A DNA stretch of 64,000 bases from Acidisarcina sp. (GTDB lineage: Bacteria > Acidobacteriota > Terriglobia > Terriglobales > Acidobacteriaceae): the NCBI GenBank assembly GCA_035539175.1, contig DATLIY010000009.1, positions 124,001 through 188,000 on the forward strand, given 5' to 3'. The notes below the pieces were generated by a model that saw only the letters and a program-made list of their open reading frames with translations, did no database searches and had not been told where the DNA came from. The number at the start of each line of letters is the position of its first letter. Position 1 is the stretch's first letter. This document shows, in pieces, positions 9,967 through 26,689 of the stretch. The position numbers and the translations under genes were made by a program.

Positions 9967-10557
9967 TTAGTGAGCGGCCTCGATCGTGCCGTGCGTCACG
10001 ACGTCCACGTCTACTTGTTTGCCCGCCTTCAGCACAAAGTTGCTGGGATCTTTCATTCCCCAGTCCACATAGGGAACCACAAAGTGAGTGGTGGCAGCGA
10101 TCTTGTCTCCGTCCATCTGAACCTTCAGCCCCATGCGCAAGGCATGATCCGCACCGTGAATATTGAATGTGCCATCTACGGTCACATCCTGCATGCTGGC
10201 TGGCTTCGGCTCTCCTGCAATCTTTGCGGCGCGAAAGGATATCAGTGGATATCGATCGGTCTGCAGAACCTTCTTCTTCATCACCCCGTCGCGCATCGAG
10301 CTGCCGCTATCCCCGCTATCCGCATCCACCAGGAACTCGCCCTCCGCAAGGCCAACCGCCGGATCGAAGCTCATCTTTCCGGTCTTGAGCTTGAATGTCC
10401 CGTGGATGTTGTGCAGCGTGTCCGTCAACTTCCAGCGGATCTCCGTCTGCGCAGGATCCAGGCGAACCGTCATCTTTTGCGCATGCAACGCAGACCCAAA
10501 AGCAAGGAACAGCACGACAGCAGTCACAGGATAAAAATAGCGAGCAAAAGTTTTCAT
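9967..10557 (-). CDS. YceI family periplasmic lipid-binding protein (copy 1)
   Basis: About 196 residues with a signal peptide (ending FGSALHAQ) and the YceI lipocalin-like beta barrel: RLDPAQTEIRWKLTDTLHNIHGTFKLKTG, then MKKKVLQTDRYPLISFRA and GTFNIHGADHALRMGLKV. YceI proteins bind long isoprenoids or quinone-like lipids. Start chosen at the ATG at 10557, where the signal peptide begins. It lies 37 bp downstream of the FAD oxidoreductase gene on the same strand, so it is plausibly the last gene of the polyketide operon and could bind its amphiphilic product. That link is inference from order. A second YceI gene is at 23074. Confidence 0.88.
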   Translation of the reverse strand: MKTFARYFYPVTAVVLFLAFGSALHAQKMTVRLDPAQTEIRWKLTDTLHNIHGTFKLKTGKMSFDPAVGLAEGEFLVDADSGDSGSSMRDGVMKKKVLQTDRYPLISFRAAKIAGEPKPASMQDVTVDGTFNIHGADHALRMGLKVQMDGDKIAATTHFVVPYVDWGMKDPSNFVLKAGKQVDVDVVTHGTIEAAH

Positions 10558-10594: not shown

Positions 10595-11746
10595 CTACGT
10601 GCGTGCCGCCGAGGGTACCAGCATTCTCCAGCCCAGGTGCAGCCCGTCCTGCCGGACGAACCGCGGCAACGACTCCGCTCCCATGTGAACCTCGAGCAGC
10701 CGGGAAAACAATGCCGGTTCGCTGGCCAGTACCCGCATGGCACGGTTGCGAAAGAGCGGCCACCGATCCATCAGCAGCATCATTCGAGCCATCGTCATAG
10801 GCAGGTGCAGAATCGCCGGATGCCCCGCAGCATAGTGGGAGAGGTTGCCAACCTCTATCGCATCCGCAAGCAGTTGTGCCTGGCGAAAGACCATCGCCAG
10901 GCCCTCGCCGGTGATGGCATCGGCCGAGCCGGAGGCATCGCCGATCAGGGCTACCCGATCTCGTGCCACGCATCGCAACCGGCGTGTTGTGGTAATGGCT
11001 CCCCGCTGCTGGCTGGTTGTGTCCTGCCCCCGCAGCGCTTCGCGCAGATATGGGATGGAGTCCACCACCTGAACCATTCGCACCTGCGGATCGCTGGCGA
11101 TGGTTGCAACGCAGAGCTCCTCTTCTCCCACCGGCGTAACATAGGCCTGCCCGCACGCTCCCCAGTGAACCTCGACATTCTCGCTCCATGGCCGAACGCG
11201 AAAGTGGCGCCGGAAGCCGAAGCGTCTGCTGATGGTCGATCCAGCCTCCAGTCGAGCCCAGCGCCGCACGCCGGAGGCCTGGCCGTCGGCCCCGACAAGA
11301 TATCCGTACGCGCAGGGCCTGCCGTCCACTTGCACCTCTCCGCGCTGGCGAAGTTCCACGTGGACGCCCCACCGCAATTGGACTCCCAGAGCCAGGGCGC
11401 GTTCGATCAGAGCCTCGTGAAGGCGCACCCTGCGAACTCCCAGGCCGGCACCGTTGGCGAACTGTGCGGTGACGCAGTCCGTCCGGCCGCTGTTGCGATT
11501 GGCAAAGTGAATGCCGCGAAATTCCTTTCCATCCGCGGGTCCCAGGCTGATTCCGAGGCTGGCTAATTCTCCGCGAGAATCCGGCATCAGCCCCTCTCCA
11601 CAGGCCTTGTCGATCGGAGGGCGCAGGGCATCCACAACCACGACATCCACGCCCCTCTGTCGCAGCGCGATGGCAGCCGACAAGCCGGCGGGACCGCCGC
11701 CAACCACCAGCACCTCCGCACAGTTTGGAATCTGAGAGTCGCTCAT
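10595..11746 (-). CDS. FAD-dependent oxidoreductase/hydroxylase (geranylgeranyl-reductase-like)
   Basis: About 383 residues of the para-hydroxybenzoate hydroxylase-type flavoprotein fold. The N-terminal dinucleotide motif is EVLVVGGGPAGLSAAIAL. Then come DKACGEGLMPDSR, typical of geranylgeranyl-reductase-like enzymes, and YLVGADGQASGVRRW. The second FAD motif is RVALIGDASGSADAITGEGL near residue 295. The start ATG (11746) shares one base with the polyketide synthase stop (TGATG), so translation is coupled. In known bacterial type III polyketide operons a flavoprotein hydroxylates alkylresorcinols to quinols (Streptomyces srs type); that role is inferred here from position. The substrate is unknown. 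Confidence 0.85.
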   Translation of the reverse strand: MSDSQIPNCAEVLVVGGGPAGLSAAIALRQRGVDVVVVDALRPPIDKACGEGLMPDSRGELASLGISLGPADGKEFRGIHFANRNSGRTDCVTAQFANGAGLGVRRVRLHEALIERALALGVQLRWGVHVELRQRGEVQVDGRPCAYGYLVGADGQASGVRRWARLEAGSTISRRFGFRRHFRVRPWSENVEVHWGACGQAYVTPVGEEELCVATIASDPQVRMVQVVDSIPYLREALRGQDTTSQQRGAITTTRRLRCVARDRVALIGDASGSADAITGEGLAMVFRQAQLLADAIEVGNLSHYAAGHPAILHLPMTMARMMLLMDRWPLFRNRAMRVLASEPALFSRLLEVHMGAESLPRFVRQDGLHLGWRMLVPSAART

Positions 11747-12795
11747 CACCATTCCAGTAGCAGGATCTCCGCGCAAAAGCCCGGCCCCATGGCTGCAAGT
11801 ACGCTGCGAGTTCCCTTTGCAGGACGCTTGTGCTTCATGACGCCATCCAGAACAGTCAGCACTGAGGCCGACGACAAATTGCCGATCCGGCGCAAGGACG
11901 CCCAGGAATCGTCAAGCGCATTCTCCGTCAATCCTAGTGCTTCGGCCGTCGCATCCAGAACCTTGGGGCCTCCGGTGTGCATAATCCAGGTTCCGATGTC
12001 GGAGCGCTTCAACCCCTGCGTTGCCAGAAAAGCGTCCACGTCCCGGCCGAGGTTCTCCCGGACCACGTTGGGAACATCGGGCGAGAGCACCAGGTTGAAA
12101 CCTTTCTCCGAAATGTCCCAGCCCATGACCCGTTCCGTATTGGGGTAGAAGGAGGAGGTGCTGGCAACAATCTTCGGTCCCCGCAGCTTCGTTTCCTCGC
12201 CTGCTACCAGCACTGCCGCAGCGCCATCGCCGAAGAGGCCCGAACCGATCATGTTCGCCACGGTGAGGTCGTCCCGCTGCCAGGTAAGCGAGCACAGTTC
12301 CACACTGAGCAGGATCGCAACCTGGTCAGGATAGGCACGCACATAGTCCGCCGCACGGGCCAGGCCCGCCGCTCCCGCGACGCAGCCCAATCCGAAGATC
12401 GGATTGCGCTTGATATGCGGATTCAGGCTCATCTTATTGACCAGTCGTGCATCGATGGAGGGGCTGGCCACGCCGGTGACACTCACGAAGTAAAGAGCGC
12501 CCACGCGGTCCCGCCCTATGCCTGCCTGCTGCAGAACGCAATCGATCGCCTGCTCGCCAAGCTTCAGCGCCACCTCAATCCAGACATCGTTCGTTTTTCC
12601 CCAGGTATCCAGGGCGTAGTAGTCCTCCAATGGCCGCGCAAAATAGCGCCCATCTACACCAGTCCGCGAGAACAGGCGCTCCAGAACCGCCGCGTTCTCC
12701 ATTCCCTTATCCCAGTACTTTTCCAGTGCCGCTACGACTTCCTGCTGCGTGAAGTAGTGTGGTGGAAACGCTGTAGCAGTGGCTGCAATGCGCAT
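11746..12795 (-). CDS. Type III polyketide synthase (chalcone/stilbene synthase family)
   Basis: A 349-residue homodimeric ketosynthase that extends an acyl-CoA starter with malonyl-CoA without an acyl carrier protein. The catalytic triad is visible: Cys near residue 137 (FGLGCVAGAAG), His near 271 (IMHTGGPKV) and Asn near 306 (GNLSSASV). The C-terminal GPGFCAEILLLEW strand is typical of the family. The ATG at 12795 has a GAGAGG site 5 nt away and gives the usual length; in-frame codons further upstream are not used. It resembles bacterial alkylpyrone/alkylresorcinol synthases more than plant chalcone synthases, but product identity cannot be read from sequence. Coupled to the downstream FAD gene. 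Confidence 0.93.
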   Translation of the reverse strand: MRIAATATAFPPHYFTQQEVVAALEKYWDKGMENAAVLERLFSRTGVDGRYFARPLEDYYALDTWGKTNDVWIEVALKLGEQAIDCVLQQAGIGRDRVGALYFVSVTGVASPSIDARLVNKMSLNPHIKRNPIFGLGCVAGAAGLARAADYVRAYPDQVAILLSVELCSLTWQRDDLTVANMIGSGLFGDGAAAVLVAGEETKLRGPKIVASTSSFYPNTERVMGWDISEKGFNLVLSPDVPNVVRENLGRDVDAFLATQGLKRSDIGTWIMHTGGPKVLDATAEALGLTENALDDSWASLRRIGNLSSASVLTVLDGVMKHKRPAKGTRSVLAAMGPGFCAEILLLEW

Positions 12796-12963: not shown

Positions 12964-14379
12964 TTAGATACTGGCCGCACGTCCCGCAAGTGCCAGTGCA
13001 TCTTTCCAGAACTGGAGCGAGGAATGCACCGCATCCATTACTTCTACGATGGCTGTGACGAACGCATCCAGGCTCTCTTCGCTAGCATTCAGGGGTGGGG
13101 CTGCTTTCAACACCAGGAAATTATTCCCGCATATCTGGGTCAGGATTCCATGTTCCCGATAGAGGCGCATCACCAGCATCTGGCCGAACATCGCAGGGTG
13201 CACGCGTGTAAATGCCTCAAAGGAGAGCCGCAACGTGAGCGACCTGGGCGGAGCAAACACGATACCGGAGAAGAATCCGGCGCCGCGCACCTCCGCAACC
13301 ATCTCGTAACCGGCAAGGGCCTCCCGCAGCCGCTGCCGAAACAGCTCGCCGAGTTCCATCGCGCGTTCGCCCAGAGCCTCGTCGTCGAGCACCTGCAAAG
13401 TGGCCAGTCCGGCGCGCATTGCCAGGCTATTTTCGCTGTAGGTGGAGGTGTGAACGATCGCCCGACGCAACGAGCCGTAGACACGCTCGTAGACTTCGTC
13501 GGTCATCAACACCGCGCCCGCCGGCACCAGTCCCCCGCTCATGGCTTTGGCCAGAATCACCATGTCCGGATCAAGCCCGTACTGCTGGCTCGCAAGAAAC
13601 GTGCCGGCACGATAGAGGCCGGTCTGCACCTCGTCCATCACCAGCAGGGTTCCATATTTGCGGCAGAGTGCCTGGGCGCCCTCCAGATAGCCCTTCGGAG
13701 GCAGAACAATCCCGCCTTCTCCCTGGATCGGTTCGAGGAAGAGCGCGGCAAACTTTTTAGTCTTCAGCAGTTTTTCGAGCGTGGCGAGATCCCCGAAGTT
13801 GACGAACGAGACCTCGGGCAGAAGCGGGCCGAATCCATCCGACCAGAAGCCGTGATCCATCAGCGACAATGCGCCGCACGACAGGCCGTGGAATGCCGCC
13901 TTTGCCGCCAGCAAGCCATTTCTCCGCGTAAAGGCACGCGAAAACTTGATTGCCGTCTCCACGCCCTCGCTGCCGGAACTGCAGAAATACGCCTTATTCA
14001 GGCGGCCTCCGGCCTTGCGGCAGAGGACCTCCGCAAGCTCGCCCGCGGTCTCGGCCACATGACTCTGAAGCATCGATGGGCCGTTGCGATCCAGCTCGCG
14101 ATGCAGCGCATCGAGGATCGCCGGATGATTATGCCCAACGTTGTACACGCAGTAGCCGGAGAGGAAGTCCAGGATGGTGCGTCCATCCTCGGTGAAGAGC
14201 TTCTCTCCGCGGCACTCGACGTACCGCGTATTCATTCCCAGCAGCTCGAGCAGCCGAACCCATTGCGGATTGACATGCGCGCCGTAATTCCCATTGGGAT
14301 CTGCATTTCCTTTAGGATTTGCGCTCGGGGTCACCTGCTTGGAAGGCGAGGAGGGCGTCCGGGCTGCGGAGTTTGGCAT
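12964..14379 (-). CDS. Class III PLP-dependent aminotransferase
   Basis: A 471-residue fold-type I enzyme of the ornithine/acetylornithine/4-aminobutyrate aminotransferase group. Visible motifs include FLSGYCVYNVGHNHP, YFCSSGSEGVETAIK (cofactor phosphate site), EPIQGEGGI, LVMDEVQTGLYRAG and ILAKAMSGGLVPAGA with the Schiff-base Lys near residue 277. The frame stays open for another 780 nt upstream, antisense to crcB, but the ATG at 14379 directly follows the operator-bearing promoter and is the natural start. The first 40 residues are a low-complexity Ser/Pro/Asn leader. It is 168 bp upstream of the polyketide synthase on the same strand and is probably cotranscribed; it may supply an amino or keto building block. 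The substrate is not deducible. Confidence 0.85.
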   Translation of the reverse strand: MPNSAARTPSSPSKQVTPSANPKGNADPNGNYGAHVNPQWVRLLELLGMNTRYVECRGEKLFTEDGRTILDFLSGYCVYNVGHNHPAILDALHRELDRNGPSMLQSHVAETAGELAEVLCRKAGGRLNKAYFCSSGSEGVETAIKFSRAFTRRNGLLAAKAAFHGLSCGALSLMDHGFWSDGFGPLLPEVSFVNFGDLATLEKLLKTKKFAALFLEPIQGEGGIVLPPKGYLEGAQALCRKYGTLLVMDEVQTGLYRAGTFLASQQYGLDPDMVILAKAMSGGLVPAGAVLMTDEVYERVYGSLRRAIVHTSTYSENSLAMRAGLATLQVLDDEALGERAMELGELFRQRLREALAGYEMVAEVRGAGFFSGIVFAPPRSLTLRLSFEAFTRVHPAMFGQMLVMRLYREHGILTQICGNNFLVLKAAPPLNASEESLDAFVTAIVEVMDAVHSSLQFWKDALALAGRAASI

Positions 14380-14406: not shown

Positions 14407-14435
14407 AATATATGTGACAACAAATATTTTGTAAG
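14407..14435 (-). promoter_or_regulatory. Predicted promoter with MarR-type operator for the aminotransferase-PKS operon
   Basis: Inverted repeat ATATTTGT-TGTC-ACATATAT at 14408-14427 (7 of 8 arm positions match). It overlaps a candidate promoter: CTTACA (14435-14430), 17-nt spacer, TATATT (14412-14407), read on the minus strand. The 15-mer ACAAAATATTTGTTG (14432-14418) recurs exactly upstream of yceI at 22949-22963, where the inverted repeat has the same arm length and spacing. The site ends 28 nt before the ATG at 14379. Confidence 0.6.
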
Positions 14436-14550
14436 ACGTTTGGATTTCGTCTTCGTCAACCGGTTTGGAGGAGAATCGATGGGATAATTTTGTGAGAACA
14501 CCCGGGACGCGGCCATGCAAGGTATTGAGGCTGCGGGGAGTAAGTCGGAA

Positions 14551-14928
14551 ATGTCGAAATATCTTTGGGTGGGCATCGGCGGCTTTGCCGGCTCCATTGC
14601 ACGCTATGCCCTGGGAGTCTGGGTCTACAGCCGTATGGGCACTCGATTCCCCTACGGCACATTTGTCATAAATATTTCCGGCTGCTTTCTGATCGGCGCC
14701 ATCCTCACGGTGTTGGATGCGCGCATCGGGCTTTCTCCAGCGTGGAGGCTCGCGATTCCTATTGGCTTCATCGGAGCCTACACCACGTTTTCCACCTTCG
14801 AGTACGAGACGATACGGCTGGCACAGGCAGGAGAGACACAACTCGCTCTGCTGAACATTGCACTCAGCACCGTAGTGGGCTATTTTGCTGTGTGGATTGG
14901 CGTAATGGTCGGCCGAGTGCTGGCCTAG
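14551..14928 (+). CDS. crcB: Fluoride exporter CrcB (Fluc)
   Basis: About 125 residues with four hydrophobic helices forming a dual-topology dimeric fluoride channel. Signature segments are GGFAGSIARYALGVWV, FPYGTFVINISGCFLIGA (the pore Asn/Gly region) and GAYTTFSTFEYET (TTFSTF, the sodium/Phe-box motif). The ATG at 14551 has GGGGAG about 10 nt upstream and removes a 12-residue non-conserved extension. I looked for the fluoride riboswitch in the leader and did not find its conserved pattern. A DUF190 gene follows after 33 bp, a common crcB partner. Confidence 0.92.
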   Translation: MSKYLWVGIGGFAGSIARYALGVWVYSRMGTRFPYGTFVINISGCFLIGAILTVLDARIGLSPAWRLAIPIGFIGAYTTFSTFEYETIRLAQAGETQLALLNIALSTVVGYFAVWIGVMVGRVLA

Positions 14929-14961
14929 CCTCTCCCCCAGCCTCTCGTTAGGAGCGTACCT

Positions 14962-15306
14962 ATGCTCATGCCAGTCAAGGCGATCCGCGTCACCATGTAT
15001 CTGAAGGAAGACCGCGTTCCAGCCGTCCTTGATTTCCTGTTCCACCACGAGGTCGCGGGAGCAACTGCGGTACATGCGTTTGCCGGATTCGGGAGCCATC
15101 ACCACATGCACACCTCGGCTCTGGTTGACCTTTCGGTCGATCTTCCTGTCATTCTGCAATTTGTCGATACGCCGGATAAACTGGAACAGTGGTTTCCCAA
15201 ACTGGCCGAGACGGTCAAGGGCGGTTTGCTCTCCACGCAGGAAGTGCTGATCTTCCGTCCCCCGCCGCCCAAGCCTTCAGAGGACAGCGGTTCTCTGTTG
15301 AAGTGA
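14962..15306 (+). CDS. DUF190 family protein
   Basis: A 114-residue cytoplasmic protein with the DUF190 pattern: AIRVTMYLKEDRVPAVLDFLFHHEVAGATAVHAFAGFGSHHHMHT, then VILQFVDTPDKLEQW. The fold is PII-like (alpha-beta). DUF190 genes are often next to crcB and may help fluoride export or signal for it, but the biochemical role is unknown. The ribosome site is TAGGAG. Likely cotranscribed with crcB. Confidence 0.85.
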   Translation: MLMPVKAIRVTMYLKEDRVPAVLDFLFHHEVAGATAVHAFAGFGSHHHMHTSALVDLSVDLPVILQFVDTPDKLEQWFPKLAETVKGGLLSTQEVLIFRPPPPKPSEDSGSLLK

Positions 15307-17689: not shown

Positions 17690-18499
17690 TCAGCCAAGCC
17701 GTGATTCGGCCTGCTGGGCTGCCTGGTAAATCTCGTCGAACGACTCCACCGCGTAGAGCACCGGCTGCATTTCCGAGGTGGAAAAGCGCTGCTCCATCAC
17801 CTGGTCCAGATTGAAGTCGCGAATCTCCGGGCCGCCGCGAACGACATGCTCGGACTCTCCCTGCGAGGAGATCAGCCCGCTGCCGTAAAGCCGGATCGCT
17901 CCCTCCTGCCGTATCACCCCAAACTCGACCGTGAACCAGAAGAGCCGCCCCATGCGCTCCAGATCCTCATGGTTGGTGAGCGCTGCGCAGACCCTGCCGT
18001 AATGCTGCAGAAAATCTGCAAATACCGGGTGGGCGTGCATCGGAACATGCCCAAAGACGTCATGAAAGATATCGGGCTCGGGAGTATAGTCCAGCGATTC
18101 CCGGCTGCGCAGATATGTGGTCGTCGGAAACTGCCGCGCCGCCAGCATCTCAAAGAATGCATCGGGAGGCAGGAAGCCGCTCACCGGGGTGGCGCGCCAG
18201 CCCGTGCGTGGCTGCAGGCGCTCATTCACATCCGCCAGGTTCGGAATCGAATCCTCACGCAGCCCAATCACTTCGAACCCTTGCAGGTACTCGCGGCAGG
18301 CATGCTGACGCAGTTGCGTCATGCGCCGGCGCACAAGCTCGGCCCACACCGCATGCTGATCCTGCGTGTACGCGCACCAATCCTGCTGGATAAGATATTG
18401 TCCAGCAATCGGGAGGCTCTTGCGGTCAATCTCTGCAGCCGGCCTCTGGCTGGCAAGGTACCCTTCTCTTCCGTGATTCTTCACGACCTCGGGATTCAT
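17690..18499 (-). CDS. phhA: Phenylalanine 4-monooxygenase
   Basis: A tetrahydrobiopterin-dependent iron enzyme that converts phenylalanine to tyrosine. The catalytic core is intact: GFLPPDAFFEMLAARQFPTTTYLRS, the two iron His in DIFHDVFGHVPMHAHP (about residues 146-151), and the iron Glu in RLFWFTVEFGVI (near 190), followed by LYGSGLISSQGES. Length is about 269 residues from the ATG at 18499; an upstream in-frame ATG at 18565 would add 22 non-conserved residues and cannot be excluded. It diverges from hppD and feeds tyrosine towards the homogentisate route encoded there. No pterin carbinolamine dehydratase (phhB) is adjacent. Confidence 0.93.
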   Translation of the reverse strand: MNPEVVKNHGREGYLASQRPAAEIDRKSLPIAGQYLIQQDWCAYTQDQHAVWAELVRRRMTQLRQHACREYLQGFEVIGLREDSIPNLADVNERLQPRTGWRATPVSGFLPPDAFFEMLAARQFPTTTYLRSRESLDYTPEPDIFHDVFGHVPMHAHPVFADFLQHYGRVCAALTNHEDLERMGRLFWFTVEFGVIRQEGAIRLYGSGLISSQGESEHVVRGGPEIRDFNLDQVMEQRFSTSEMQPVLYAVESFDEIYQAAQQAESRLG

Positions 18500-18665
18500 G
18501 GCATATACCCCGACACAAGCTGCGAAACCTCCGCAACTTTGCGCCTTATGTTCATCCGATGTCAATCAGGCCAGGCGGGGCTGGGAATGAGTTTCACATT
18601 ACTGAATTGCAGCTTCCACCGGGAAGCCTGCCAGCACATTGCTCCAGGGTGTATCGTATGTGGTC

Positions 18666-18690
18666 GTTGGGGCCAGATGCTGACCCCAAC
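18666..18690 (+). promoter_or_regulatory. Hairpin in the phhA-hppD divergent region
   Basis: Inverted repeat GTTGGGG-c-CAG-atg-CTG-a-CCCCAAC (10 pairs, one mismatch) lies 32 nt before the hppD ATG. It could be a dyad operator serving both divergent genes or a leader hairpin. No T tract follows. Confidence 0.4.
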
Positions 18691-18722
18691 CGATGCATCT
18701 TAAACGTGGGGAGTATTACACC

Positions 18723-19853
18723 ATGTCCACGCTTACACATCCCGAAGTAGAAACCAGGCATGACTTTCTGCCCCTGAATGGTACCGATCATATTGAGTTG
18801 TACGTGGGTAATGCGCGCCAGGCTGCCTATTACTACCGAGTTGCGTTTGGCATGACTCTGGTCGCGTATGCCGGACCTGAGACAGGACTTCGCACCCGCG
18901 CCTCCTACGTCGTCCAGCAAGGCAAGATCCGCTTCGTCCTCACCACTCCGCTGCGCCCCGACGGCGAAATAGCAGAACACATCCACCGCCATGGAGACGG
19001 CGTGCGTGACATAGCCCTGTGGGTTGATGACGCCAGGCAGGCATGGAAGGAAACAACCAAACGTGGCGCCCGCAGTGTTCTCGAACCTACGGAACTGAGA
19101 GATGAATATGGCATCGTCCATATTGCGTCGATCGCTACGTATGGAGACACGGTTCACACCTTCGTCGAGCGCCGCCGCTACTATGGCCCATTTCTCCCTG
19201 GCTATCGCGCCATCGCGAACGATCCCCAGGCGCGCCCTGCCGGTTTGCAGCATGTCGATCACGTGGTGGGAAATGTGGGCTGGCACGAAATGGACCGCTG
19301 GGTTGACTTCTACCGGAACGTCATGGGGTTCGAGCTATACCAGCACTTTGACGACAAGGATATTTCGACCGAGTACTCCGCACTGATGTCCAAGGTGATG
19401 AGCAACGGGAACGGCCGCGTCAAGTTTCCAATCAATGAGCCGGCAGAGGGCCGTAGGAAGTCGCAGATCGAGGAGTACCTTGAGTACTACCATGGATCCG
19501 GGGTCCAACATATCGCTATGGCAACCAGCGACATTCTGGCGACTGTGGCCTTGCTGAAGCAGCAGGGGGTTGAGTTTCTCTCCATACCGCACGCTTACTA
19601 TTCCGCGCTGGAGAGCCGCGTTGGCCGCATCGATGAGCCACTGGAAGAGTTGGAGAAGCTGGGGATTCTCGTCGATCGAGATGAGGAAGGCTACATGCTC
19701 CAGATCTTTACGCGCCCTGTCGAGGATCGGCCCACGCTCTTCTTTGAGATCATCCAGCGCAAAGGCAGCCGGAGTTTTGGCAAAGGAAACTTCAAAGCGC
19801 TCTTCGAGGCCATTGAGCGCGAGCAGGCGGCACGTGGAAATCTATTAAGGTAA
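18723..19853 (+). CDS. hppD: 4-hydroxyphenylpyruvate dioxygenase
   Basis: A 376-residue Fe(II) enzyme that converts 4-hydroxyphenylpyruvate to homogentisate. Two vicinal-oxygen-chelate domains are seen: the N-terminal one begins GTDHIELYVGNARQAAYYY, and the catalytic C-terminal one begins LQHVDHVVGNVG. The iron ligands are His in DHVVGN, His in GVQHIAMAT and Glu in LFFEIIQRKG. The C-terminal helix (GSRSFGKGNFKALFEAIEREQ) is the family's gating helix. The ATG at 18723 has GGGGAG at 9 nt and removes ten upstream codons. First gene of a four-gene catabolic operon; the FAH gene starts 4 bp after its stop. Confidence 0.96.
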   Translation: MSTLTHPEVETRHDFLPLNGTDHIELYVGNARQAAYYYRVAFGMTLVAYAGPETGLRTRASYVVQQGKIRFVLTTPLRPDGEIAEHIHRHGDGVRDIALWVDDARQAWKETTKRGARSVLEPTELRDEYGIVHIASIATYGDTVHTFVERRRYYGPFLPGYRAIANDPQARPAGLQHVDHVVGNVGWHEMDRWVDFYRNVMGFELYQHFDDKDISTEYSALMSKVMSNGNGRVKFPINEPAEGRRKSQIEEYLEYYHGSGVQHIAMATSDILATVALLKQQGVEFLSIPHAYYSALESRVGRIDEPLEELEKLGILVDRDEEGYMLQIFTRPVEDRPTLFFEIIQRKGSRSFGKGNFKALFEAIEREQAARGNLLR

Positions 19854-19857
19854 GCGC

Positions 19858-20814
19858 ATGAAGCTGTGCACGTTCGAAGTGCAGACCCATTTAGGAAGCT
19901 TTCGCCGGCTCGGCGCCGTCTGTTCCGACAGCGTCATCGACCTTAACTTTGCAGCGGCATTGCACCTGGAGAATTCGCGGCACGCCGATGCCCTGGTGCC
20001 GCCTTCGCTGCTTGCGTGGCTCGAAGGCGGCACGCTCACGCACAAGACAACCCTGGACGCCATCGCCTATCTTCCTGCGCATCTGTGGCAGGGCAAGCAC
20101 GGCGAGACGCTCCGGTATCGCCATGATGAAATCCGGATGCTGACGCCGCTGCCGGATGCGCGTTCCCTGCGCGACTTCTACGCCTTTGAGGCCCACGTCC
20201 AGAGCGGCTTTGAGAAGCGCAATGAGGCCATGCCGAAGGAGTGGTACGAGATACCCGTCTACTACCAGACAGGCCACCACAACCTTATCGGCTCCGACCA
20301 GGACGTGCTGTGGCCGAGCTTTACGGAGCGATTTGACTATGAGCTGGAACTGGCCGCTATCATCGGGCGGGAAGGCCGCAATATCAAGGCCGAAGAGGCA
20401 CGCCAGTACATCGCTGGATACACCATCCTGAATGACTTCAGCGCGCGGGATATGCAAAAGCGCGAGATGAAAGTTCGCCTCGGACCTGCGAAGGGAAAGC
20501 ACTGGTGCTCTGGACTGGGACCATGGATGGTGACCGCCGATGAACTGACCAATCCCTACGACCTGGTGATGACCGCACGCGTGAACGGCGAAGAATGGTC
20601 TCGTGGCTACTCCGGCGATCTGCATTGGAAATTTGAACAGATGATTGAGTTCCTCACCCTGGATGACACCATCTATCCCGGCGACATCATCGGCTCGGGA
20701 ACCGTAGGAACGGGCTGCGGACTGGAGTTGGACAAGTGGGTTCAGCCGGGCGACACACTCGAACTGGAAATCGAAAAGATAGGAGTACTGCGCAATCGCG
20801 TAGTGCGAAAGTAA
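19858..20814 (+). CDS. Fumarylacetoacetate hydrolase family protein
   Basis: A 318-residue FAH-fold hydrolase. Metal-binding acidic residues and the fold core are visible in TERFDYELELAAIIGREGRNI, GYTILNDFSARDMQKREM and TLDDTIYPGDIIGSGTVGTGCG. In this operon it most likely cleaves fumarylacetoacetate (or maleylacetoacetate) to fumarate and acetoacetate, the last step of homogentisate breakdown. It is shorter than the eukaryotic-type fumarylacetoacetase (about 420 residues), so the exact substrate is inferred from context. No maleylacetoacetate isomerase gene is present nearby. Confidence 0.9.
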   Translation: MKLCTFEVQTHLGSFRRLGAVCSDSVIDLNFAAALHLENSRHADALVPPSLLAWLEGGTLTHKTTLDAIAYLPAHLWQGKHGETLRYRHDEIRMLTPLPDARSLRDFYAFEAHVQSGFEKRNEAMPKEWYEIPVYYQTGHHNLIGSDQDVLWPSFTERFDYELELAAIIGREGRNIKAEEARQYIAGYTILNDFSARDMQKREMKVRLGPAKGKHWCSGLGPWMVTADELTNPYDLVMTARVNGEEWSRGYSGDLHWKFEQMIEFLTLDDTIYPGDIIGSGTVGTGCGLELDKWVQPGDTLELEIEKIGVLRNRVVRK

Positions 20815-20840
20815 GCGGAGCCACAAACGGAGAGTGCCCT

Positions 20841-21989
20841 ATGTTTCCCCTGAAAAAAGGCAAGACCGCACAACAAGCGCACGTTGGACTACCGCAGGGT
20901 ACTTACGAAGAAGAACATGGGCGCAAAGGTTTCTACGGAAAAGCCGCGCACCTTTACCACACACATCCGCCGACAGACTGGATTCGCTTCGAGGGGAAAC
21001 TCCGGCCGCATCTTTTCGATCTGAACAAGCTGGAGCCAGGCGACCATAAAGACCCGGCAGGAGGGCCGGAGACCTTTCTCCACAACCAGGATGTGCTCCT
21101 CTCCGTGTCCCGTCGGTCCCGGCCCATGCCGTTTTATTTTCGTAACAGTGATGGAGACGAATTGTACTTTGTCCATCGCGGACATGGCAGCATCGAGACG
21201 GACTTTGGTCCGCTGGAGTACGAGAAGGGCGATTACATCGTGCTTCCCCGCTCCGTTACCTACCGCGTGGTGCCGGCGGTGGAGGATAATTTCTTCCTCA
21301 TCATCCAATCGAAGGCGGAGTTCAATCAGCCGGAGCGCGGCCTTCTCGGTCAGCATGCTCTCTACGATCCTGCGGTCATTGTCGTGCCTGAGCCCTCGCC
21401 GCTTTCCTCGAAGGCCGAGGATCGCGACGAGTGGGAGGTGCGCATCCGCTGTGAAGGCGAGCACTCCAAGGTCTTCTACCCCTTCAACCCTATTGACGTC
21501 ATCGGGTGGAAGGGCGACTTGACGGCATGGAAGATCAACCTGCGCGACATTCGTCCGGTGATGAGCCATCGGGCCCATCTACCACCGAGCGCACACACCA
21601 CGTTCGTCACCGAGGGAGCCGTGGTTTGCAGCTTTGTTCCGCGCCCGCTGGAGCAGGAGGCCGACGCGATGAAGGTCCCCTTCTTCCACCGCAATACGGA
21701 TTACGACGAATTCATCTTCTACCACGATGGAGACTTCTTCAGTAAGGACAACATCGAGCCCGGTTATGCCACGCTGCACCCTCGCGGAATCCACCACGGC
21801 CCCCACCCCAAGGCGCTTGCGAATCAGGGGAAGAAGACGCACACCGACGAGTACGCGGTCATGTTGGACGGCCTGAACCCCATCCATGTGCTACCCGCGG
21901 GAGAGCAGGTGGAGTGGGCAGATTACTGGGCAAGCTGGGGCGCCGCAGCACGAAACAAAAAACGCCGGCAAACGGAAACGGTACCATAA
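20841..21989 (+). CDS. hmgA: Homogentisate 1,2-dioxygenase
   Basis: A 382-residue cupin-fold iron enzyme that opens the homogentisate ring to maleylacetoacetate. Visible are HTHPPTDWIRFEG near the N terminus, FRNSDGDELYFVHRGHGSIET, RPVMSHRAHLPPSAHTTF, the ligand segment NTDYDEFIFYHDGDFFS with the iron Glu, and HPRGIHHGPHPKAL with the ligand His. The ATG at 20841 follows a CGGAGAG site; the longer open frame overlaps the FAH gene and is not used. It is shorter than the human enzyme (445) but matches the compact bacterial form found in hpp/fah/hmg clusters. Confidence 0.93.
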   Translation: MFPLKKGKTAQQAHVGLPQGTYEEEHGRKGFYGKAAHLYHTHPPTDWIRFEGKLRPHLFDLNKLEPGDHKDPAGGPETFLHNQDVLLSVSRRSRPMPFYFRNSDGDELYFVHRGHGSIETDFGPLEYEKGDYIVLPRSVTYRVVPAVEDNFFLIIQSKAEFNQPERGLLGQHALYDPAVIVVPEPSPLSSKAEDRDEWEVRIRCEGEHSKVFYPFNPIDVIGWKGDLTAWKINLRDIRPVMSHRAHLPPSAHTTFVTEGAVVCSFVPRPLEQEADAMKVPFFHRNTDYDEFIFYHDGDFFSKDNIEPGYATLHPRGIHHGPHPKALANQGKKTHTDEYAVMLDGLNPIHVLPAGEQVEWADYWASWGAAARNKKRRQTETVP

Positions 21990-21993
21990 GAAC

Positions 21994-22629
21994 ATGCCTG
22001 AGCAAGACTCCCAAGACATGCTGACTTTCGATCCCGCGAACTATGCCCCACAGGACATCTATAAATTGATGGTGGGATCGATTGTGCCGCGCCCCATCGC
22101 ATTTGTATCTACCGTGGATGCAAATGGAGTTGGCAACCTGGCTCCCTTCAGCTTCTTTACAGCGGCCAGCGCCAATCCCCCGGTCGTCTGCTTCTGCCCC
22201 ATGCTTCGCCGTGTCGGTCCGCCGGAAAAGGATACTCTGCGCAATGTGGAGGCTACTCGTGAGTTCGTCGTCAACATCGTTTCCGAGGAGTTTGCGGAAC
22301 GGATGAACCTTTGTTCCGCCGAGGTGCCGCCGGAGGTCAATGAATTTGATATCTCCGGGCTCACTCCGCTCGCCAGCGAACTGGTTCGTCCCCCTCGCGT
22401 TGCGGAGTCGCATGTGCAGATGGAGTGCCGCCTGCTGCAGGTAGTCCGAGTCAGCGACAAGCCAATGGGAGGGGTGCTCGTGCTGGGCGAGGTGCTGCGC
22501 TTCCACGTCCGCGAGGGATTGGTCGCCGAGTTTCGCATCGATCCTGCCAAGCTGAAGGCCATCGGTCGCATGGCCGGGACCACGTACGTCCGTACCACCG
22601 ACCGTTTTGACATGGATCGGCCGCACTGA
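21994..22629 (+). CDS. Flavin reductase domain protein (FMN-binding split barrel)
   Basis: About 211 residues of the flavin-reductase-like split barrel: MVGSIVPRPIAFVSTVDANGVGNLAPFSFFTAASANPPVVCF, then ATREFVVNIVSEEFAERMNL. Such proteins bind FMN and reduce it, or act as flavin-dependent oxidoreductases with unknown substrate. It begins 4 bp after hmgA, so it belongs to the homogentisate operon, but none of the classical steps needs a flavin reductase. It may support a side reaction or detoxify a quinone such as benzoquinone acetate; this is speculation. Confidence 0.85.
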   Translation: MPEQDSQDMLTFDPANYAPQDIYKLMVGSIVPRPIAFVSTVDANGVGNLAPFSFFTAASANPPVVCFCPMLRRVGPPEKDTLRNVEATREFVVNIVSEEFAERMNLCSAEVPPEVNEFDISGLTPLASELVRPPRVAESHVQMECRLLQVVRVSDKPMGGVLVLGEVLRFHVREGLVAEFRIDPAKLKAIGRMAGTTYVRTTDRFDMDRPH

Positions 22630-22953: not shown

Positions 22954-22986
22954 ATATTTGTTGCAACGAATATCTCGCTGTATCAT
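22954..22986 (+). promoter_or_regulatory. Predicted yceI promoter with MarR-type operator
   Basis: Inverted repeat ATATTTGT-TGCA-ACGAATAT at 22954-22973, with GTTGCAAC as its perfect core. It overlaps the -35 box of a candidate promoter: TTGTTG (22958-22963), 17-nt spacer, TATCAT (22981-22986). The same operator architecture precedes the polyketide operon at 14408-14427. The marR gene two genes downstream is the likely source of the regulator. Confidence 0.65.
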
Positions 22987-23073: not shown

Positions 23074-23646
23074 ATGAAGTTCAAGGCATTGGCAGTAGCG
23101 ACAGTATTGGCAGTAGGTGCTTCCCTAGCGAGCGCCCAGACTTCGACATGGAAGTTCGATTCGGCGCACAGCTCCGCTGATTTCGTAATTCGCCACATGG
23201 GCATTTCGAATGTGCATGGACACTTCGGCAATGTGAGTGGAACCATCAACCTGGACGACAAGGACATCACCAAGTCCTCTGTTAAGGCCACCGTGGATAC
23301 CACGACTGTCGACACCGGCGTCGAGCAACGCAACACCCACTTGAAGAGCGCTGACTTCTTCGATGTGGCAAAGTATCCTGATATGACCTTTGTGAGCAAG
23401 CAGTTGGTGAAGAAGGATGGCAAACTGGAGCTGATCGGCGACCTCACCATGCACGGAGTGACCAAGAGCGTGACTCTCGATCTGGATGGCCCCAGCCAGG
23501 TTATGGTCGATCCGAAGGGTGTCTCGCACCGCGGATTCTCTGCCACCACCAGCATTCACCGCGCCGACTTCGGACTCACTTACGGAAACGGAATCCTGGG
23601 AGACGATGTGAAGGTCTCTCTCGACGTGGAAGCAATCAAGCAGTAA
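23074..23646 (+). CDS. YceI family periplasmic lipid-binding protein (copy 2)
   Basis: A 190-residue protein with a signal peptide (MKFKALAVATVLAVGASLASAQ) and a full YceI barrel: WKFDSAHSSADFVIRHMGISNVHGHF, RNTHLKSADFFDVAKYPDMTF and DLTMHGVTKSVTLDLD. This is closer to canonical YceI than the copy at 9967. It has a strong AGAGGAG ribosome site and a MarR-type operator about 100 nt upstream, with the marR gene following in the same direction, the usual arrangement of a MarR-controlled stress-inducible yceI. Confidence 0.93.
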   Translation: MKFKALAVATVLAVGASLASAQTSTWKFDSAHSSADFVIRHMGISNVHGHFGNVSGTINLDDKDITKSSVKATVDTTTVDTGVEQRNTHLKSADFFDVAKYPDMTFVSKQLVKKDGKLELIGDLTMHGVTKSVTLDLDGPSQVMVDPKGVSHRGFSATTSIHRADFGLTYGNGILGDDVKVSLDVEAIKQ

Positions 23647-23732: not shown

Positions 23733-24248
23733 ATGGTCAGGAAGCTCCAAGAGGAGATTAAACAGTCACTACCCTTCTCCACGCTGGAAGAAGAAGCGAT
23801 GCTGAACCTGTCACGGACAGCAGACCGTTTGCAGAGCTCCTTTCGACAGATGCTGAAGCAGTATGCGCTTACCCCGGCACAATACAACGTGCTCCGCATC
23901 CTGCGGGGCGCCGCGCCGTCGGGACTGACCTGCAATGATCTGGGTTCGCGGATGATCAGCGAAGACCCGGACATCACCCGGCTGCTGGATCGGCTGACCA
24001 AGCAGAATCTGGTTCGCCGGCGCCGGGATCAGACCGATCGCCGCGTGATTTATACCTGGATCACTCCAGCGGGACTGGAGAAATTGAAAGAGCTGGATCC
24101 CCTGGTAATCAGCTATATCCAGAATCAGGTGAAACATATGAGCCAGGAGCGGCTCCTGTTGCTTATCGATCTGCTGGAGGAGGCTCGCCAGTCAGCCGAC
24201 ACTCCTGTAGAGAATGCTCCGGCTGCGGCACACACACTCCACGAATAG
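23733..24248 (+). CDS. MarR family transcriptional regulator
   Basis: About 171 residues with a winged helix: LTPAQYNVLRILRGAAPSGLTCNDLGSRMISEDPDITRLLDRL, and the wing LVRRRRDQTDRRVIYTWITPAGLEKL with the DRR signature. The ATG at 23733 begins VRKLQEEIKQ, a frequent start for acidobacterial MarR proteins; an ATG at 23676 would add 19 residues but its G-rich site is too close to serve. MarR dimers bind 16-20 bp pseudopalindromes and are released by phenolic or lipophilic ligands. The likely targets are the sites at 22954 and 14408. Confidence 0.9.
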   Translation: MVRKLQEEIKQSLPFSTLEEEAMLNLSRTADRLQSSFRQMLKQYALTPAQYNVLRILRGAAPSGLTCNDLGSRMISEDPDITRLLDRLTKQNLVRRRRDQTDRRVIYTWITPAGLEKLKELDPLVISYIQNQVKHMSQERLLLLIDLLEEARQSADTPVENAPAAAHTLHE

Positions 24249-26287: not shown

Positions 26288-26689
26288 ATGACCGCGCTGT
26301 CCTACAAGTCTGCCGCCCTGGTTACCGCCCTAATCATGACGATTGCAACAACGTCTTTCGCTTCGACCCACAGCCCTAGTGCACCGCAACCGATTCCTCC
26401 TGCTGGAGACTCCTTTGCCGCTCTCCGCAGCCCCAGCGCTCCTCAGCCCATTCCTCCCGCTGGTGATTCATTCCGCAGCCCAAGCGCACCGCAACCGATT
26501 CCTCCTGCCGGAGACTCCTTTGCCGCTCTCCGCAGCCCAAGCGCACCGCAGCCCATTCCTCCTGCTGGAGACTCCTTTGCCGCTCTCCGCAGCCCCAGCG
26601 CTCCGCAGCCCATTCCCCCGGCTGGCGATTCGTTCCGCAGTCCAAGTGCACCGCAACCCATTCCTCCTGCCGGGGACTCGCTAGCTTAG
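26288..26689 (+). CDS. Secreted tandem-repeat protein (SPSAPQPIPPAGDS repeats)
   Basis: 133 residues: a signal peptide (1-25, ALVTALIMTIATTSFA) followed only by six repeats of SPSAPQPIPPAGDSF ending in AALR or R, with unit lengths 19, 16, 19, 19, 16 and 16 residues. No other domain, cysteine or anchor is present. The mature protein is Pro-rich with one Asp per unit and an Arg between units, probably extended and disordered (polyproline-like). TAGGAG ribosome site at good spacing. Two membrane-protein genes follow in the same direction. Function is unknown; a surface spacer, matrix component or binding peptide are all possible. Confidence 0.75.
   Translation: MTALSYKSAALVTALIMTIATTSFASTHSPSAPQPIPPAGDSFAALRSPSAPQPIPPAGDSFRSPSAPQPIPPAGDSFAALRSPSAPQPIPPAGDSFAALRSPSAPQPIPPAGDSFRSPSAPQPIPPAGDSLA
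26372..26686 (+). repeat. In-frame coding tandem repeat, 57/48-bp units
   Basis: Six in-frame units of 57, 48, 57, 57, 48 and 48 bp encode the SPSAPQPIPPAGDS array. Units differ mainly at silent positions (for example GCTCCTCAGCCC versus GCACCGCAACCG), so the peptide is better conserved than the DNA. This suggests selection on the peptide rather than only recent duplication. Confidence 0.85.

Follow-up and report, generated by a model that had tools for sequence, protein, structure and literature searches.

A putative MarR operator of a yceI-marR unit and its weaker, lineage-specific copy over a type III polyketide synthase promoter in an acidobacterial genome

A 20-bp palindrome lying upstream of a yceI-marR pair is, on strong comparative grounds, the operator of the MarR-family regulator encoded at position 23733 (hereafter MarR 23733), and a weaker copy of it probably brings an aminotransferase-polyketide synthase (PKS)-FAD-yceI operon under the same regulator in this species. 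The window, that is the whole stretch of 64,000 nucleotides analysed here (G000:C9:124001-188000), belongs to a 3.92-Mb genome that its nearest named relatives, among them Paracidobacterium, Silvibacterium and Acidicapsa, place in the Acidobacteriaceae. The initial annotation had described two palindromes sharing a 15-mer on opposite strands, one before each unit, and had proposed that the MarR protein may sense the polyketide or a related lipid quinone and control both units. Both palindromes are present where it had placed them (Table 1) and the 15-mer, ACAAAATATTTGTTG, is exact in the two sites, in opposite orientations, which confirms this two-site observation. The gene assignments (aminotransferase, type III PKS, FAD oxidoreductase and YceI in one unit, YceI and MarR in the other) hold as well.

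The natural unit of these sites is a palindrome of 10+10 bp, whose arms match at 9 of 10 positions in site 2 and at 7 of 10 in site 1. One half-site of site 1 is identical to that of site 2 at all 10 positions, and the identity extends over 5 flanking bases. Site 2 is near the family consensus and site 1 is weaker (38.0 versus 22.1 bits with the larger matrix described below); the two sites thus share the 15-mer but neither strength nor arm symmetry. When up to 2 mismatches were allowed, the 15-mer matched the window twice, at sites 1 and 2, against 0.05 matches expected. Over the whole genome, with at most 1 mismatch, the same two copies were the only ones, and the reversed-pattern control gave 0. 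The 15-mer is therefore not a genome-wide repeat occurring at many unrelated positions, the argument that had been named in advance against a shared operator. A recent duplication of a promoter segment was also rejected, since the identity ends at 15 bp and no longer homology is seen.

Table 1. Predicted operator sites and the genes of the two units (window positions, except for the azoR site, which is given in genome and locus coordinates).
Feature	Position	Strand	Remarks
Site 1	14408-14427	minus	ATATTTGTTGTCACATATAT; 20-bp imperfect palindrome; putative MarR operator of the aminotransferase-PKS operon
Site 2	22954-22973	plus	ATATTTGTTGCAACGAATAT; predicted operator of the yceI-marR operon
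Third site	G000:C9:327178-327197 (L010:1501-1520)		same motif, before the FMN-NADH azoreductase gene azoR; 24.7 bits
Class III aminotransferase	12964..14379	minus	first gene behind site 1; Pfam Aminotran_3, 283.8 bits
Type III PKS	11746..12795	minus	Chal_sti_synt N and C domains
FAD-dependent oxidoreductase/hydroxylase	10595..11776	minus	geranylgeranyl reductase superfamily, UbiH-like
yceI1	9967..10557	minus	last gene of the PKS operon; PF04264, 67.7 bits
yceI2	23074..23646	plus	first gene behind site 2; PF04264, 168.8 bits
MarR-family regulator	23733..24248	plus	PF01047, 42.2 bits (cut-off 24.6)

The best NCBIfam matches of the aminotransferase and of the PKS are PigE and DpgA, respectively, both under the cut-off. 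With a DpgA-like PKS and a UbiH-like FAD enzyme, the product of this operon is plausibly phenolic or quinonoid. A crcB-DUF190 pair (14515-15306) diverges from the operon; a fluoride riboswitch or other Rfam element before crcB was considered and rejected, as the region between the PKS operon and crcB gave no Rfam match. Between the two sites, at 17690-22629, lie genes for a phenylalanine hydroxylase, a 4-HPP dioxygenase, an FAH-like hydrolase, a homogentisate dioxygenase-like protein and a flavin reductase. The matrix scan detected no operator copy in this homogentisate/tyrosine degradation cluster, and no site is present at the third YceI gene of the genome (C10), so that control of either by MarR 23733 through this operator was rejected.

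To which protein does the motif belong? Relatives of marR were retrieved by protein similarity alone, the motif being unused, which gave 29 loci besides that of the window. In this set, yceI adjoins marR in 10 loci and all 10 have a site of at least 30 bits, mostly before yceI but in L041 at the marR start; where yceI is absent, a related GTTATAAC palindrome is frequently found at the start of marR. A pattern search across 398 family genomes found matches in 95. The 110 distinct sites that were examined lie before yceI (71), pirin (15) and marR (13), which together account for 99, and before other genes (11). Several yceI-pirin units located away from marR (L098, L114, L115, L200, L303, L310, L313, L315, L334 and L335) have separate operator copies before yceI, and often before pirin too, and action in trans would thus be common. 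At site 2, a TTGCAA -35-like element is embedded in the palindrome; most of the yceI-marR relatives checked have this element too, with a YATCNN hexamer 17 nt further on, an arrangement expected of a repressor operator. The three other MarR proteins of the genome that are clearly above the Pfam cut-off have different and unrelated promoter palindromes.

These phylogenetic footprints support the proposal that the motif is the operator of MarR 23733, and the case for this ownership is strong. A pseudo-palindromic operator of the 16-20 bp class in the regulator's own promoter, kept in 10/10 yceI-marR loci, is what characterizes a MarR autorepressor, and we read site 2 as a strong autoregulatory operator. 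YceI appears to be a core target of this type of regulator across the family, a link that exceeds the coincidence of two operons. The operator, its owner and the core regulon are all read from sequence comparison, which identifies them clearly. In the open-licence literature we found no earlier description of a MarR-YceI-pirin regulon, family-wide or other.

Is site 1 a genuine copy of this operator? The scoring matrices were trained solely on other genomes, which avoids circularity. A 12-site matrix gave 37.1 bits to site 2, 24.5 to site 1 and 8.4 to the next position in the window, and a 103-site matrix gave 38.0, 22.1 and 0.4 bits, respectively; site 1 is thus the second-best position of the window with either. 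Sites scoring at least as high are expected by chance about 0.01-0.02 times per genome (0.024 with the 103-site matrix), and no off-target above 15.7 bits was found in 1.52 Mb of related DNA. When 3 mismatches at most were allowed, the relatives' consensus fell at three distinct places in the whole genome, site 2, site 1 and a position before azoR, the reversed control giving 2. A low-stringency pattern search (3 mismatches) was near background, with 13 matches versus 8 in its reversed control, and for this reason we limit the sites claimed to the three just named. As the initial annotation had suggested, site 1 overlaps a plausible promoter of the PKS operon: it lies 29 bp before the ATG of the aminotransferase gene and spans the spacer and the -10 element of CTTACA-17-TATATT (14435-14407, minus strand), the sole sigma-70-like promoter detected in this intergenic stretch. 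In the window species, the operon thus has over its promoter a site that stands above background at 22.1-24.5 bits, singled out by the sequence comparisons, and its score and position support the view that it is statistically real and placed to repress the operon. However, the core of site 1 reads GTTGtCAC versus GTTGcAAC (GTTGnAAC) in true sites, with a C where 99% of these have an A, and the share of true sites scoring below it is 1% with the 103-site matrix. Given this non-consensus C, which the congener shares, and the low score, binding at site 1 may be weak or even absent.

Many acidobacterial genomes have the same aminotransferase-PKS-FAD-yceI order. In 117 upstream regions of PKS operons from relatives (some of them duplicated), the best operator score was 13.2 bits, the true sites used scoring about 20 bits or more, and no relative, from an 87% identical PKS downwards, conserves the site. 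In six loci the yceI-marR pair even lies 4-9 kb from a PKS operon (L078, L089, L126, L135, L136 and L139) and has a near-perfect operator, yet the PKS/aminotransferase promoter has none. Co-conservation in relatives, on which the shared-operator proposal had also counted, therefore fails for site 1, which is absent from every other PKS/aminotransferase promoter examined. The PKS operon is ruled out as a conserved member of the MarR regulon, and the present form of site 1 is lineage-specific.

The only congener, G019, has lost marR and constitutes a natural comparison. Both operons are kept, with yceI2 (84%) on a different contig from the PKS operon and, between yceI2 and luxR, a marR remnant (L250:2180-2314, reverse complement; 39% over the last 48 residues). 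Both sites are decayed, site 2 to CTATTTGTTGCTACGGAATG (2.5 bits) and site 1 to GTAGTTGTTGCCACGCGCCT (2.1 bits, with the same non-consensus core C). That both sites decayed where the regulator was lost is consistent with a shared operator. It counts, however, as a single, soft event, since the genome is metagenome-assembled and the remaining intergenic sequence has diverged as well. The G019 aminotransferase gene (L074:9581-9910) is short of about 330 codons, which may reflect either a genuine deletion or faulty assembly, the PKS, FAD and yceI1 genes being intact; azoR is absent from G019 at the threshold used.

Taken on its own, the absence of site 1 from all other PKS operons examined would agree with a fortuitous match within an AT-rich promoter, the MarR operators being then site 2 (and the azoR site) only and the PKS being controlled otherwise. 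The broken near-invariant core base, in the same state in the congener, goes in the same direction, and an assumed 400 kb of AT-rich promoter would supply up to 0.07 matches like site 1 by chance. We nevertheless find this explanation rather unlikely, given the distance of site 1 from the next-best window position under both matrices, its genome-wide expectation of 0.01-0.02, its location over the promoter just before the start codon and the perfect half-site, with flanking bases, that it has in common with site 2. Of the MarR control first proposed for both units, the part that concerns site 2 stands firmly; for the PKS operon, with a statistically real site over the promoter that decayed where marR was lost but is not co-conserved, species-specific co-control through the weaker site is in our judgement likely, with appreciable doubt.

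The third site lies about 60 bp before the ATG of azoR. As the reversed control itself gives 2 matches at up to 3 mismatches, the weight of this site comes from its conservation and not from the count: sites precede azoR relatives in G118 (28.9 bits), G020 (23.5), G072 (23.1), G017 (17.8) and G085 (16.4), and G118 and G072 also have a regulator of the MarR 23733 type. Site 1 and the azoR site could in principle belong to a different regulator that recognizes similar sequences, either a MarR paralogue or an HxlR-type protein, because GTTGTAAC/GTTATAAC cores are common to several MarR sub-branches of the family and other bacteria often use a separate protein to regulate azoR. However, the unrelated palindromes of the three other MarR proteins and the coexistence, in G118 and G072, of the regulator with the same azoR site make this improbable. 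We retain MarR 23733 as the probable owner of all three sites. Azoreductases and ring-cleavage dioxygenases are classic members of the MhqR/YodB/QsrR quinone regulons (PMC6798810), and here an azoreductase is found under the same operator, both in the window genome and in relatives. In relatives the operator also precedes genes for luciferase-like oxidoreductases and, in two of them, LigB ring-opening dioxygenases; no LigB target was found in the window genome. A wider regulon of azoR, pirin, LigB and flavin oxidoreductases suggests quinone/phenol electrophiles in general as the signal.

The AF2 model of MarR 23733 (pLDDT 93.8) matches MarR structures, with HpaR, HosA, PcaV and NadR among the fold neighbours. 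In the fold comparison, the closest solved sequence (39% identity, nearly full length) is a MarR protein of Planctopirus (Planctomyces) limnophilus to which no function is assigned (PDB 3u2r); it is devoid of the cysteine of the GLxC motif, which MarR 23733 has. This single cysteine, C67 counting the Met (codon 23931-23933), opens helix a3 in the model and is invariant in 75/75 homologues, and its conservation makes it a candidate redox/electrophile sensor.

Alternatively, MarR 23733 could respond to an ordinary aromatic acid or to a lipid, in the manner of HpaR, HosA and PcaV, the cysteine being then structural. It has the MarR fold in common with these proteins, its best NCBIfam match is HpaR, and marR adjoins the tyrosine/homogentisate degradation cluster. 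On the other hand, MarR 23733 was rejected as an HpaR (TIGR02337, 58 bits versus an equivalog cut-off of 121.2), its targets, unlike those of HpaR/HosA, include no degradation operon, the adjoining cluster is without operator, the regulon (azoreductase, pirin, LigB, YceI) is not one catabolic pathway, and the cysteine is invariant. An aromatic acid or lipid signal is a serious possibility, but one that we place below an electrophile signal.

MhqR (MarR) and QsrR/YodB (DUF24) of Staphylococcus and Bacillus are likewise small repressors with pseudo-palindromic operators over promoters (PMC6798810, PMC12893000), and their targets, like those of MarR 23733, include an azoreductase; they also include ring-cleavage dioxygenases, whose counterparts here are the LigB targets of two relatives. 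The core targets YceI and pirin set MarR 23733 apart from these regulons, the MhqR operator TATCTCGAA-aTCGAaATA is unlike that of site 2, and MhqR senses without thiol chemistry whereas the cysteine with which a3 begins in MarR 23733 is invariant. Orthology to MhqR was rejected, with 17% identity in the fold match to the MhqR structure 9qdr, 27.5 bits in phmmer and different operators. The target set suggests that MarR 23733 works like MhqR and QsrR/YodB, its sequence and operator making it a member of neither. As regards the carriers, isoprenoids, ubiquinone-8 among them, are ligands of YceI lipocalins (PMC9113575). In the BcnA/LcoA system of Burkholderia covered there, YceI lipocalin genes are induced under oxidative or antibiotic stress and family members bind ubiquinone-8; the partner is a cytochrome b561, and the account consulted mentions no MarR operator of this kind.

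The explanation that we favour overall, with moderate confidence, combines an autorepressor, a quinone/phenol switch and the capture of the PKS operon. MarR 23733 would repress its own gene through ATATTTGTTGCAACAAATAT-type palindromes, with yceI, pirin and marR as core family targets, azoR as an addition and further targets, aromatic-ring dioxygenases and flavin oxidoreductases, in certain species. Its most likely role would be that of a quinone/phenolic-electrophile stress switch: a reactive aromatic would occupy the pocket, or attack the invariant cysteine next to the DNA-binding helix, and so free the protein from DNA, and the YceI lipocalin carriers and detoxifying enzymes would be induced. 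In the window species, the weaker operator copy over the PKS promoter would place phenolic polyketide synthesis and the operon's own YceI under the same repressor, and a phenolic or quinonoid product would explain this capture. From the placement of site 1 we infer binding there, with repression as its sign; the quinone or phenol signal and the role of the cysteine are suggested by regulon content and conservation. That the phenolic/quinone product of the PKS-FAD operon, or its oxidised form, itself releases MarR in a product-sensing circuit is doubtful; if true, a single new operator would have wired together polyketide synthesis, two YceI carriers and a quinone reductase.

The compact MarR-YceI-pirin-azoreductase regulon, defined from sequence alone, concerns a widespread and poorly understood soil family, and its exact operator and candidate sensing cysteine give YceI lipocalins a testable physiological context, quinone/phenol stress. 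Site 1 would illustrate how a stress regulator may capture a secondary-metabolite operon through one new operator. At 26288-26689, the window also encodes a small secreted-looking protein built of RSPSAPQPIPPAGDSFAAL repeats.
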